Under the pieces are notes generated by a model. That model did not search any database and was not told the DNA's origin. It worked only from the letters and a program-made list of their open reading frames with translations. Positions 31,448 through 50,597 of a stretch of DNA of 64,000 nt are shown piece by piece. Position numbers and translations under genes: made by a program. Numbering within the stretch: the first letter of the stretch is position 1; every line of letters begins with the position of its first letter. Source of the DNA: Roseovarius pacificus (GTDB lineage Bacteria > Pseudomonadota > Alphaproteobacteria > Rhodobacterales > Rhodobacteraceae); assembly GCF_900142665.1 (NCBI RefSeq), contig NZ_FRBR01000005.1, positions 124,001-188,000 of the forward strand, in the 5' to 3' direction.

Positions 31448-34024
31448 ATGAGCAGTTATGACGAATCCGACGCCTTCGAAGGCGCCAGCCTGTCCGCGCG
31501 CGCCATGGCGGCGCGGCCGATGCCCTATCTCGACGATCTCAACCCCGAGCAACGCGCGGCGGTCGAGGCGCTGGATGGCCCCGTGTTGATGCTGGCCGGG
31601 GCAGGGACCGGGAAGACCAAGGCGCTGACCACCCGTATCGTGCATCTGCTGAACACCGGCTCGGCCCGTCCGAACGAGATTCTGGCGGTGACATTCACCA
31701 ACAAGGCGGCGCGCGAAATGAAAGAGCGCGTGGGCCGGATGCTGGGCGAGGCGGTGGAGGGGATGCCGTGGCTGGGCACGTTCCACTCGATCTGTGTGAA
31801 ACTGCTGCGCCGCCATGCGGAACTGGTCGATCTGAAATCGAACTTCACCATTCTGGACACCGACGATCAGGTTCGCCTGCTCAAGCAGTTGATTCAGGCG
31901 GCGGGCATCGACGACAAACGCTGGCCCGCGCGGCAACTGGCGGGGATCATCGACAACTGGAAAAACCGTGCCTGGACGCCGGATACGGTACCTGCCGGAG
32001 AGGCATCGGCGTTCGATGGCAAGGCCCCGGCGCTGTATCGGCAATACCAGACCCGCCTGCGTGAACTGAACGCGGTGGATTTCGGTGACCTGCTGTTGCA
32101 TGTGGTCACGATTTTCCAGCAGCATGCGGATATACTGGCGCAGTATCAGCGCTGGTTCCGTTATATTCTGGTGGACGAGTATCAGGATACCAACGTCGCG
32201 CAGTACCTTTGGCTGCGGCTGCTGGCGGGGGGGCACAGGAATATCTGCTGCGTGGGGGACGACGATCAGTCGATCTATGGCTGGCGCGGCGCCGAGGTGG
32301 GCAATATCCTGCGGTTCGAAAAGGATTTTCCCGGCGCCACGGTGATCCGGCTGGAGCAGAATTACCGCTCGACCCCGCATATTCTGGCGGCTGCGGGGGG
32401 GGTGATCGCGGCCAACAAGGGGCGGCTTGGCAAGGAGTTGTGGACCGACGCGCCCGAGGGCGAAAAGGTGCGCCTGATCGGCCATTGGGACGGCGAGGAA
32501 GAAGCCCGCTGGATCGGTGAAGAGATCGAGGCGATGCAGCGCGGCACGCGCGGGATGCGGCCCATCGGGTTGGACGAAATGGCGATTCTGGTGCGCGCCT
32601 CTCATCAGATGCGGGCCTTCGAGGATCGGTTCCTGACCATCGGCCTGCCTTATCGGGTGATCGGCGGGCCGCGGTTTTACGAGCGGATGGAGATCCGCGA
32701 TGCCATGGCCTATTTCCGGCTGGTGGTCAGCCCGGCGGACGATCTGGCCTTCGAGCGGATCGTGAACACGCCCAAGCGCGGGCTTGGCGACAAGGCGCAG
32801 CAAACGATCCAGCGGCTCGCGCGGGAGAATGGCGTGTCCTTGCTGGACGGAGCGGCCCTGGCGGTGGAGCAGGGCGCGATCAAGGGCAAGGGTGGTGCCG
32901 CGCTACGTGAACTGACCGAAAGACTCGCTGTCTGGCAGCATTTGAATCGAAGTGTAGGAGACAAGGCAGAGATAGATAGGTTTCGTGAACAAATTCGGGA
33001 AAATGAGATTCTATTGGATCAAGCGACCGAAGAGTTATCGAACCTTCAATCTACAGATATTCAAGAATTTTCGACCGATGAAGAACGCGAGGAACAACTA
33101 GCGCGCATTTCCGAATGTGAGTTGGTGGTGCAGCAGCATCGTTCAAGAATTGAAGTGATCGAGCGATACATTGAAGTTCTACAAGGTAATCACGTTGTTT
33201 TTGCCGAAATCATCCTGGACGAATCCGGCTATACGGAGATGTGGCAGAACGACAAGACGCCCGGGGCTCCGGGGCGTCTGGAGAACCTCAAGGAACTGGT
33301 GAAGGCGCTGGAGCAGTTCGAGAACCTTGGCGGGTTTCTGGAGCATGTCAGCCTGATCATGGACAACGAAAGCGAGGAAGGCGATCAAAAAGTCACCATC
33401 ATGACCCTGCACGCCGCCAAGGGGCTGGAATTTCCCGCCGTGTTCCTGCCGGGGTGGGAAGACGGGCTGTTTCCCTCGCAGCGTTCGATGGACGAAAGCG
33501 GGCTGAAAGGCATCGAGGAAGAGCGGCGGCTGGCCTATGTGGGTATCACGCGGGCCGAGGAACTCTGCACGATTTCCTTTGCCGGGAACCGCCGGGTCTA
33601 TGGGCAGTGGCAATCGCAATTGCCTTCGCGGTTCATCGACGAATTGCCCGAGGCGCATGTCGAGGTGCTGACCCCGCCGGGATTGTATGGCGGGGGCTAT
33701 GGCGCGGCGGCGGGCGGTGCGGCGCAAAGCGGGCTGGAGCAGCGCGTGGCCGAGGCCAATGTCTATAATTCGCCGGGGTGGCGGCGGTTGCAGGAACGTG
33801 CCGCCGATCGGCCCGCCAGCCAGCCGCGCGGGGCGAAATCCAGCGTGATCGACGCGCAGGCCGTCAGCGCCCATACGGTGGGTGAGCGGGTGTTTCACCA
33901 GAAATTCGGCTATGGCGCGATCATCGGAATCGAGGGCGACAAGCTGGAGATCGATTTCGAAAAGGCGGGCGTCAAGAAAGTGGTGGCGCGATTCGTCATG
34001 GGCACGGACGACGTGCCGTTCTGA
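31448..34024 (+). CDS. UvrD/PcrA-family DNA helicase with an extra coiled-coil insert
   Basis: The 858-residue SF1A helicase has Walker A AGAGTGKT (about 48-55), DEYQD (about 242), GDDDQSIYGWRGA, QNYRST, TLHAAKGLEF (about 652) and YVGITRAEE, plus a C-terminal Tudor-like RNAP-binding module (VFHQKFGYGAIIGIEGDKLEIDF, about 815-850). It acts in repair and collision clearance. Residues about 493-587 (bases 32925-33210), in the 2B subdomain, are an AT-rich highly charged stretch with heptad character (EIDRFREQIRENEILLDQA and on). Its codons (ATA, CTA, TTA, AGA, CGA, AGG) are unlike the rest. The frame resumes as normal 2B sequence at ILDESGYTEMWQND. Family members that I recall are about 70 residues shorter. 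Confidence 0.93.
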   Translation: MSSYDESDAFEGASLSARAMAARPMPYLDDLNPEQRAAVEALDGPVLMLAGAGTGKTKALTTRIVHLLNTGSARPNEILAVTFTNKAAREMKERVGRMLGEAVEGMPWLGTFHSICVKLLRRHAELVDLKSNFTILDTDDQVRLLKQLIQAAGIDDKRWPARQLAGIIDNWKNRAWTPDTVPAGEASAFDGKAPALYRQYQTRLRELNAVDFGDLLLHVVTIFQQHADILAQYQRWFRYILVDEYQDTNVAQYLWLRLLAGGHRNICCVGDDDQSIYGWRGAEVGNILRFEKDFPGATVIRLEQNYRSTPHILAAAGGVIAANKGRLGKELWTDAPEGEKVRLIGHWDGEEEARWIGEEIEAMQRGTRGMRPIGLDEMAILVRASHQMRAFEDRFLTIGLPYRVIGGPRFYERMEIRDAMAYFRLVVSPADDLAFERIVNTPKRGLGDKAQQTIQRLARENGVSLLDGAALAVEQGAIKGKGGAALRELTERLAVWQHLNRSVGDKAEIDRFREQIRENEILLDQATEELSNLQSTDIQEFSTDEEREEQLARISECELVVQQHRSRIEVIERYIEVLQGNHVVFAEIILDESGYTEMWQNDKTPGAPGRLENLKELVKALEQFENLGGFLEHVSLIMDNESEEGDQKVTIMTLHAAKGLEFPAVFLPGWEDGLFPSQRSMDESGLKGIEEERRLAYVGITRAEELCTISFAGNRRVYGQWQSQLPSRFIDELPEAHVEVLTPPGLYGGGYGAAAGGAAQSGLEQRVAEANVYNSPGWRRLQERAADRPASQPRGAKSSVIDAQAVSAHTVGERVFHQKFGYGAIIGIEGDKLEIDFEKAGVKKVVARFVMGTDDVPF

Positions 34025-34137
34025 TCCCATTCTCACAAGCTGCGGAATATTTCGAAATGGACGGTGGTTGCGGCATGTCGGTGACGGGCCGGAAATGGCG
34101 GTTTCACAGCTTGCAAGATATCGAGGATTGCGCCACA

Positions 34138-34306
34138 GTCAGGCTCCGAGGTGCCCGCATCATGCGGGAGAATTGGGAAGCCGGTGAAACTCCGGCGCTG
34201 CCCCCGCAACGGTAAGGATGGGGGATGCGGCACAAGGCCACTGGACGCGTGAACAGGTCCGGGAAGGCGCTGCATCCGATCCCGCCAAGCCCGGAAACCA
34301 GCCTTG
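34138..34306 (+). promoter_or_regulatory. Cobalamin (B12) riboswitch
   Basis: The segment has the conserved core of the class. AGGCT at 34141-34145 pairs with AGCCT at 34300-34304 (P1). GAGGTGCCCGC, GGGAAGCCGGTGAAACTCCGGCGCTGCCCCCGC (split across the P4-P6 junction), the ACGGTAAGGA end, the GCCACTGG box and CCCGGAAACCAGCC are all present. It reads plus-strand and lies 120 bases before the start of a 90-residue gene, not before a B12 synthesis or transport gene. Confidence 0.95.
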
Positions 34307-34364
34307 GACAAACGTCAAGCTGCGGAGGGCGGTGCGGACGAGGGAAACCGGGCGTCCGGTTTCG

Positions 34365-34426
34365 TTTCGTTCACAAGGTCCTTTGCCCCAGATTGGCCCG
34401 GGGTGTGGCCGAAGGAGTGAACGAAA
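34365..34426 (+). promoter_or_regulatory. Start-covering hairpin, likely riboswitch expression platform
   Basis: A 10-base arm at 34365-34374 is perfectly complementary to 34417-34426, which covers the end of the GGAG ribosome site and the A of the ATG at 34426. Inside the loop, TCCTTTGCC and GGCCGAAGGA can extend the pairing over the whole ribosome site. This suggests control of translation initiation by B12. Confidence 0.65.
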
Positions 34427-34698
34427 TGAGTGCAGGTCGCATTCTGAGCGGATTGGAAACCAGCGACGCAACCGGGGCCGAGGCCGAGGCGGTGGCGCGC
34501 ATGGGATTTCTGGAATGGGTTTTCGCGGAACCGGACGCGGTGACCGCACGGGCGGCGCGGGTCGCGCTGGACTGTCCGGAGGCGCGCAATGCCGTCAGCC
34601 CGGCGGCGCAGGCCTTTGTCGGGTTTCTGAAACAGGCCGGAAACGGCGGCGCCGCGCGCCCGGTGCGCCGCAGGCGGCGGGCGATGGCCCTGCATTAA
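34426..34698 (+). CDS. B12-riboswitch-controlled small protein of unknown function
   Basis: The 90-residue product starts at ATG 34426 behind a GGAG site. It is mostly helical: an acidic first third (SDATGAEAEAVARMGFLEWVF), an Ala-rich middle (VTARAARVALDCPEARNAVSPAAQAFVGFL), and a basic tail (RPVRRRRRAM). There is no signal peptide, membrane span or cysteine pair, and one Cys in the middle. I do not recognise a family. Its leader is a full cobalamin riboswitch, so its synthesis should depend on B12. Its stop overlaps the stop of the convergent deacylase gene by three bases. It may be a B12-independent substitute, a chaperone or a regulator; none of these is shown. Confidence 0.75.
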   Translation: MSAGRILSGLETSDATGAEAEAVARMGFLEWVFAEPDAVTARAARVALDCPEARNAVSPAAQAFVGFLKQAGNGGAARPVRRRRRAMALH

Positions 34699-36277: not shown

Positions 36278-36499
36278 TTAGTTCTGAATGCCGTATACGG
36301 CTTCCAGTGCGGCCGAGCGCAGGCCCGAGCGGTGCAGGCCAAGATCGGCCAGCGAACGGTCGTCGAGCTTCTGCAATTCGTTCAGAGTGGCGCGATAGAT
36401 GCGGTAGTCGGAAAAGCGTTGCATCAGGTGATGCAGAGCGGCACTGATTTCCAGTCCGAGGCCGGTTTCCGTTGCGCGGGTGTAGTTTGCGAAAGTCAT
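36278..36499 (-). CDS. ccaF1: DUF1127 small protein, CcaF1-like
   Basis: The 73-residue protein ends with the DUF1127 helix pair (RATLNELQKLDDRSLADLGLHRSGL). In R. sphaeroides the DUF1127 protein CcaF1 (RSP_6037) binds RNA and helps mature the CcsR1-4 sRNAs cotranscribed behind it; the same order of one DUF1127 gene and four CCUCCUCCC hairpins is seen here. By that analogy the locus would respond to heat and oxidative stress. ATG 36499 is the start; the frame extends upstream to 36604 but the promoter-like boxes lie there. No strong ribosome site is visible. Confidence 0.88.
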   Translation of the reverse strand: MTFANYTRATETGLGLEISAALHHLMQRFSDYRIYRATLNELQKLDDRSLADLGLHRSGLRSAALEAVYGIQN

Positions 36500-36537
36500 C
36501 GTCTTGCGTCCGAATTTGAGTGGTGAACACCGTTTGG

Positions 36538-36563
36538 GTGTATGTCTTTCTGTTGACCTCAAG
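36538..36563 (-). promoter_or_regulatory. RpoH-like heat-shock promoter for the DUF1127-sRNA locus
   Basis: On the minus strand CTTGAGG (36557-36563) is followed after 11 bases by ACATACAC (36538-36545). This resembles the alphaproteobacterial RpoH consensus CTTGAAA and CCCATNT. The start codon lies about 35 bases after it. Control of CcaF1-CcsR by RpoHI/RpoHII is known in Rhodobacter. Confidence 0.55.
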
Positions 36564-37946
<1,383 letters not shown>

Positions 37947-50350: not shown

Positions 50351-50449
50351 CTTGTGGCCTCTCGATAGGAAACACATACGAAACTTTCTTGAAGCGCAGG
50401 TTAAACCCGCGTGACGGTGTTGACCTGCAACAGCAGGGCCGCTAATCCG

Positions 50450-50508
50450 GTTCGCGTGGCGATTTGTTACCGGATTGCGGGCCACGTTAAACAACACCGC
50501 TAAAGAGG
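50450..50508 (+). promoter_or_regulatory. SAM-II riboswitch
   Basis: CGTGGC at 50455-50460 pairs with GCCACG at 50481-50486 (P1). Between them lie GATTTGTTACCGGATTGC, and after them TTAAACAACACCGCTAAAGAGG, matching the SAM-II pseudoknot class typical of alphaproteobacterial met genes. The 3' end includes an AAAGAGG ribosome site. It precedes metZ, so SAM should repress methionine synthesis. Confidence 0.9.
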
Positions 50509-50513
50509 TCAGG

Positions 50514-50597
50514 ATGAAAGCCCCCTTTCGCTTGACCGCGTCGGGGGTTTTTTTATTGGGGCCTGCATGGCCCATGGAGATCGGATATGGACAGTGA
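50514..50597 (+). CDS. Possible 27-residue leader peptide before metZ
   Basis: An ATG five bases after the SAM-II GAGG site opens a 27-codon frame (MKAPFRLTASGVFLLGPAW and on) that ends with TGA at 50595-50597, 11 bases inside metZ. The coding stretch also spans a terminator-like hairpin. It could couple translation from the riboswitch to metZ or be accidental. Confidence 0.35.
   Translation: MKAPFRLTASGVFLLGPAWPMEIGYGQ
50517..50554 (+). terminator. Terminator-like hairpin between SAM-II and metZ
   Basis: A 9-bp stem, 50517-50525 with 50543-50551 (one G-U pair), is followed by a T-rich run, 33 bases before metZ. It may give SAM-II a transcription-termination output. Confidence 0.65.

Follow-up and report, generated by a model that had tools for sequence, protein, structure and literature searches.

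A conserved small protein of no recognised family, usually encoded directly behind a cobalamin riboswitch, in Roseovarius and other Alphaproteobacteria

We analysed a stretch of 64,000 nucleotides from Roseovarius pacificus (hereafter the window), in which a cobalamin riboswitch is followed by an open reading frame (ORF) for a 90-residue protein. Judged by its sequence and its distribution, the ORF is almost certainly a real, conserved gene linked to the riboswitch; comparison of related loci showed the aptamer, a hairpin of the expression platform, the ORF and the linkage all to be conserved. The best overall explanation, to which we attach about half of our confidence, is a translational OFF cobalamin riboswitch whose product is an adaptor or regulator acting in trans. 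Few RNA switches have been studied as thoroughly as cobalamin riboswitches, whose main classes of target are regarded as understood. A target that is conserved and lies outside the named classes would provide a handle on how marine bacteria without a canonical MetE over the cut-off survive B12 shortage, and the recurring pairing of riboswitch and protein suggests an unrecognised part of coping with such shortage.

Riboswitch and gene in the window

The features of the locus are given below in window coordinates.

34132..34320, + strand: cobalamin riboswitch aptamer RF00174, full length (cmscan, 117.6 bits)
34197..34207, + strand: P5/L5 region GCTGCCCCCGC, from sequence, its loop complementary to the L13 loop
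34365..34374, + strand: 5' arm of the 10-bp helix of the earlier note, partner 34417-34426; real in the window, not conserved
34385..34389, + strand: GCCCC, candidate antisequestor for GGGG 34400-34403; near-invariant in 62 loci, pairing inferred
34393..34412, + strand: L13 hairpin, arms 34393-34398 and 34407-34412, loop 34399-34406 CGGGGTGT; covariation in 62 loci, abuts the ribosome site
34412..34417, + strand: Shine-Dalgarno sequence AAGGAG, read by eye
34426..34698, + strand: 90-residue protein P0001, the window member of the family, ATG at 34426 to stop at 34698, by homology

The window aptamer belongs to the cobalamin riboswitch class. It scored 117.6 bits (gathering score 31.5) and covered all model positions, 1-189 (E 7.8e-29 when the whole window was searched, 1e-30 when 851 bases were searched). 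The earlier note on this DNA had described a full B12 riboswitch and proposed a covariance search with the Rfam model; that search found the RNA undecayed. The ORF is flanked upstream by a uvrD/pcrA-type helicase gene and downstream by an M20-peptidase-type gene (names by reading). Since the latter, the next gene downstream, is convergent, no other gene in the window could be served by the riboswitch.

Six RF00174 riboswitches were detected in the R. pacificus genome, the window copy included. Named by reading translations, two of the remaining five precede btuB-F-C-like sets, one a Rieske oxygenase gene pair, one an nrdH-like gene and one a stretch toward cobW-/cobN-like genes. At C23:218599-219118 of this genome, two cobalamin riboswitches stand divergently (L001, L006, L086), one before the nrdH-like gene and the other before genes for a Rieske oxygenase and a reductase that by reading resemble gbcAB.

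Sequence and composition of the protein

The earlier note had assigned the small protein behind the riboswitch to no recognised family, and searches of three family collections agree with it. The best Pfam match of P0001 was TetR_C_18 (E 0.026), and a TetR C-terminal domain identity was rejected at 15.4 bits (cut-off 33.1); NCBIfam and PHROGs each returned 0 matches. The known families of B12 transport, synthesis and isozymes gave no Pfam, NCBIfam or PHROGs match over the cut-off either. In the PDB, searched by sequence, the best E-value for P0001 was 0.71. The Pfam and NCBIfam searches were likewise empty for five distant relatives or paralogues, and a Cereibacter azotoformans record annotates its copy as a hypothetical protein.

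The protein is acidic and then basic, as had been described, with a pI of 4.65 for residues 1-72 and of 12.0 for residues 73-90. The tail has a pI of about 12 on average, and the last 15 residues of 64 Roseovarius proteins contain a mean of five Arg. Hydropathy gave no membrane segment (maximum KD19 0.66). The invariant residues include a Trp in helix 2. A C-terminal His, Asn or Gln was found in 63 of the 64 Roseovarius proteins and was considered as a possible metal ligand; this idea was dropped, as 26 of 40 proteins from other genera end differently.

The ORF was intact in 64/64 Roseovarius loci and encoded 83-95 residues, and 48 of the 62 distinct Roseovarius sequences entered alignment A1. 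Divergence at codon positions 1, 2 and 3 was 0.35, 0.33 and 0.59, respectively (64 sequences); the third position diverges nearly twice as much as the first two, which indicates selection at the protein level.

Occurrence and linkage to the riboswitch

With the window protein as query, a homologue was found in 64 of 84 Roseovarius genomes (R. pacificus counted), and a wider profile added five among the remaining 20, giving 69/84. The other 15 genomes, some of them incomplete, were without the protein, which must therefore be dispensable. Of the 64 first-set loci, 62 (the window plus batches of 20/20, 20/20, 18/20 and 3/3) have a riboswitch immediately before the gene and in the same orientation, as do four of the five loci found with the profile only, giving 66/69 in total. 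In G022 (L052) and G017 (L083), whose loci are related, the gene has no adjacent riboswitch, and both genomes carry cobalamin riboswitches elsewhere. In G047, no riboswitch was seen in the 4,000 scanned bases of its 4,960-base contig.

Linkage beyond Roseovarius was assessed in a Rhodobacteraceae sample of 394 genomes, about one per genus. Forty-three had a match at E<=5.8e-13, 41 of them outside Roseovarius, and a riboswitch was directly upstream in 37 of these 41 (11/13 and 26/28). In G425 and G499 the riboswitch heads genes that precede the protein, and in G199 and G411 the gene has no adjacent riboswitch. The weaker tail of Rhodobacteraceae matches, where sampled, consisted mostly of a glnE-linked paralogue described below.

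A class-wide sample of 385 genomes was searched with profile A6, whose sequences included G799 and three outsiders linked to a riboswitch. This yielded 14 likely homologues outside Rhodobacteraceae at E<=1.3e-4. With a covariance model built from 15 aptamers, a riboswitch was found directly upstream in 11 of the 14 genomes, and in eight of the 10 that had not entered the A6 build; three of the 11 riboswitches were also detected with RF00174. The 11 genomes represent four families and seven genera, with four genomes sharing one genus; the weakest of their matches (E about 1e-4) are likely, not certain, homologues. In G799, G672 and G632, the gene or a likely homologue has no adjacent riboswitch.

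The expectation that orthologues always follow this RNA class thus held in most genomes and not in all. The earlier note had also considered that the ORF might not be conserved in relatives that keep the riboswitch; it is conserved both in Roseovarius and in other genera. The idea of a chance ORF beside a riboswitch that serves another gene has in its favour the absence of a known family and nothing else. Against the intact ORF at every first-set Roseovarius locus and a linkage that holds across other genera and families, we regard its probability as negligible.

Expression platform

The conserved leader element is a hairpin whose 3' arm enters the ribosome site, as found in alignment A3 of 62 Roseovarius leaders (G017 and G022, without riboswitch, were omitted). 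In this L13 hairpin, 91.6% of cells were paired, compared to 60.0% in the best slid control. Compensatory change was seen in five of seven pairs (14 cells), and 0/500 shuffles scored as high. Among 61 distinct rows, its two outermost pairs failed to form in 20 and 15. On this covariation evidence, the conserved expression platform is the hairpin at the ribosome site.

The earlier note had proposed another platform, a 10-bp complement between 34365-34374 and 34417-34426. In the window it is exact and strong (duplex -21.9 kcal/mol, against -10.4 kcal/mol for shuffles). Across the 62 Roseovarius loci, the equivalent pairing reached -14.06 against -14.07 for shuffled sequences (median rank 0.51). 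Being no better than shuffled, the pairing shows no conservation that would mark an expression platform, and we rejected it in that role; a different hairpin is the conserved one, and the 10-bp helix is at best a local feature.

The loop CGGGGTG of the hairpin is complementary to the aptamer L5 loop GCCCCCG, and the GCCCC upstream is able to compete for the same GGGG of the L13 loop. A pattern search located CTGCCCCCGCAAC upstream in 35 of the 40 loci from other genera; a stricter pattern, GCTGCCCCCGCAAC, was present in 52 of 64 Roseovarius loci. An L5/L13 design with translational control is known for the cobalamin riboswitch class. Bound cobalamin would bring L5 (GCCCCCG) into a kissing interaction with L13 (CGGGG), which would lock the hairpin by the Shine-Dalgarno sequence and stop translation. 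When B12 is short, GCCCC 34385-34389 would pair with GGGG instead and the protein would be made. Both pairings are taken from known cobalamin switches and not from covariation, because both are nearly invariant. By analogy, the switch would be of the translational OFF type, and its architecture makes it very probable that the protein is produced at low B12.

Leaders of a long-form subfamily (L174-L203) differ in layout. In many of them, a short upstream ORF (frequently ATGGAC...) lies some 65-70 nt before the gene and is itself preceded by the CGGGGTG loop. The ribosome site of the gene proper frequently has the sequence GCGCGGAGGGCGC, a possible hairpin. Translational coupling is possible in these leaders.

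Gene neighbourhoods

With a crude gene call, no downstream gene was conserved across the 64 Roseovarius loci; any link of the protein to methyl metabolism therefore rests on other genera. The neighbours found in other genera, or in Roseovarius genomes matched by the profile only, were as follows. Five genomes, G388, G453, G094, G057 and G047, have a BtuF-like gene downstream in the same orientation (PF01497 was tested for G388 only; the rest by reading). A split metH is a same-strand neighbour in G250, G373 and G339 (the N-terminal metH part was family-tested in G250; the rest by reading), as is a homocysteine S-methyltransferase gene in G457 (PF02574 tested). A GbcA-like/GbcB-like pair lies upstream in G425, where the GbcA-like protein matched its family at 522 bits, below the cut-off of 670, and downstream behind a second riboswitch in G349; gbcAB-like genes are convergent neighbours in G059 and G079. 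Genes of zinc-transporter type stand directly upstream in G499 (L198) and G047 (L236), with ZnuA tested for G499. Those of G499 stand behind a cobalamin riboswitch; a B12-controlled metal transporter would be unusual.

A search of a plasmid collection gave no match for the window protein and, with a relative as the query, three Cereibacter records. On the C. azotoformans plasmid, the gene precedes one for a DUF1289/DUF6925 protein, and a divergent second riboswitch stands before adjoining cobyrinate and cobyric acid synthase genes. A homologous stretch was found on a Cereibacter sphaeroides plasmid, so that the question can be transferred to a species used in the laboratory.

Taken together, the neighbours point to B12 and methyl metabolism and not to one single enzyme. 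Their diversity in other genera, zinc-transporter genes included, counts against the methyl link. The BtuF-like genes downstream in five genomes, and the cobyrinate/cobyric acid synthase genes with their divergent riboswitch on the C. azotoformans plasmid, are what would be expected of an accessory protein of B12 uptake or salvage working with the Btu system or with a cytosolic cobalamin-binding protein. The lack of a membrane segment by hydropathy speaks against this, as does G070, which retains a riboswitch ahead of btuB-F-C-like genes (by reading) without the protein, and we consider such a role unlikely.

The same neighbourhoods bear on a cis-acting role, in which translation of the ORF and not its product would matter, for example, by coupling or protecting the downstream message. 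In several genera, the gene lies between the riboswitch and metH or btuF-like genes, and the long-form leaders contain a further short ORF upstream. Selection at the protein level, conservation of both head and tail, and the absence of a conserved downstream partner in Roseovarius make a leader function very improbable, and we retain a product that acts in trans as the preferred reading.

Structure models and the basic tail

AlphaFold was applied to the window protein and to a relative that shares 26% identity with it in the wide alignment A4; the two models show a nearly identical order of helices (pLDDT 83.8 and 86.7), with the basic tail less certain. The models suggest a compact helical head and a flexible, arginine-rich tail. 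With Foldseek, neither model had a match at E<=0.001; 1vb5 was first for the window model (E 3.4). The best VIA-align Z-scores were 6.4 for the window model (a designed protein) and 5.6 for the second model, both of which we took as common arrangements.

The latter match was to the eIF2B/MtnA N-terminal helical domain (second model against 9hve_A, Z 5.6, rmsd 3.5, 80 aligned); for the window model, the same domain came up with 6o81_A (Z 4.1, rmsd 6.3) and with 1vb5, the first Foldseek row. The eIF2B rows for the second model ranged from Z 4.5 to 5.6 at 6% identity, below the tool's meaningful level for helical models, and we treat the resemblance as a common arrangement. Searches by PDB sequence, Foldseek and VIA-align thus provided no biochemical hint.

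The composition of the tail could fit a nucleic-acid-binding regulator, in which it would bind mRNA or DNA and extend B12 control to genes that have no riboswitch. The tail pI of about 12 and its five Arg on average are in line with this, and an RRGG motif was present in 34 of 40 other-genus proteins. The same motif was found in only one of the 64 Roseovarius proteins, and no known nucleic-acid-binding fold stood out in the structure searches with both models, which exclude no family. We judge this regulator improbable, about on a par with the uptake role.

A paralogue linked to glnE

A small protein of Rhodobacteraceae encoded beside glnE is related to the riboswitch-linked family (hhalign of A4 against A5: probability 97.6, E 3.5e-12, 63 columns). 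The two have an FLDW-type motif and an RRGG tail in common and differ in the N-terminal part. No riboswitch was found at L138, L139, L141 and L143, the four paralogue loci scanned, and the window gene, unlike the paralogue, is not positioned behind glnE. The glnE motif was found in 21 of 22 paralogue loci (PF03710 tested in one), and the paralogue alignment A5 omits L138. Members (L138, L139, L141, L143, L214-L231) are about 90 residues long and follow the pattern ECRSIFLDWALSLP ... DHPMT ... RRGGxRxR; two had no Pfam or NCBIfam match, and a third had no Pfam match. The position of the paralogue suggests that the fold may serve accessory roles beside more than one system.

Proposed role and relation to known systems

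The product would be a trans-acting adaptor or regulator with a binding partner in B12-dependent methyl transfer or methionine metabolism, and would lower B12 demand or re-route methyl groups. We see an even chance that it is an adaptor or regulator of this kind and not an enzyme or transporter; that the partner lies in methyl or methionine metabolism is a more doubtful proposition. This mode of action would resemble that of MntS-like limitation-induced small proteins, which are made when a nutrient is scarce and adjust the use of that nutrient. The two differ in size, charge and nutrient, and no sequence relation is claimed.

No canonical MetE over the cut-off was found in any of the 84 Roseovarius genomes, 18 of which had partial matches to its C-terminal half; B12 shortage should therefore hurt methionine synthesis. 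A model of class II ribonucleotide reductase (RNR) found a match in 83/84 Roseovarius genomes, exceeding the cut-off in 82, but it did so in 11 of 14 control genomes as well. NrdJ and MetE profiles did not separate Roseovarius genomes with the protein from those without it. We discarded a Fisher test of riboswitch count against protein presence: the count includes the riboswitch of the protein itself, which makes the test circular.

Methionine synthesis has been tied to glycine betaine demethylation in marine bacteria (PMC12478193), a link that puts the metH and gbcAB-like neighbours in context; the protein is not mentioned in the part of that article considered here. The target classes of cobalamin riboswitches, as given in the part of PMC3766115 used, are B12 synthesis, transport of B12 or its precursors, cobalt transport, isozymes of B12-dependent enzymes, and other or unknown; within that part, P0001 matched no named class by sequence. 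Searches of an open-access literature library turned up nothing recognisable as this protein; as 15 Rhodobacterales genomes are covered in PMC3766115, its supplementary material may list the gene as unknown. We tentatively propose, at somewhat less than even confidence, an old and widespread alphaproteobacterial family of small B12-stress effectors, which would form a further riboswitch target class next to synthesis, transport and isozymes and let one riboswitch act in trans on B12-dependent methyl metabolism, with a sister branch beside glnE.

Other features of the window

The uvrD/pcrA-type gene upstream contains an AT-rich in-frame stretch at about 32930-33205 (+), very roughly 85-90 codons long (..IDRFREQIRENEILLDQ..). 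The same position in the relative L126 holds a short RWGRMAGDADVSHMEL, and the stretch looks like an insertion. On the minus strand, a small ORF at 36278-36604 has an end that we take to be DUF1127-like, and the type also occurs in L129 and L134. A SAM_alpha riboswitch was detected at 50446-50524 (+) with 63 bits.
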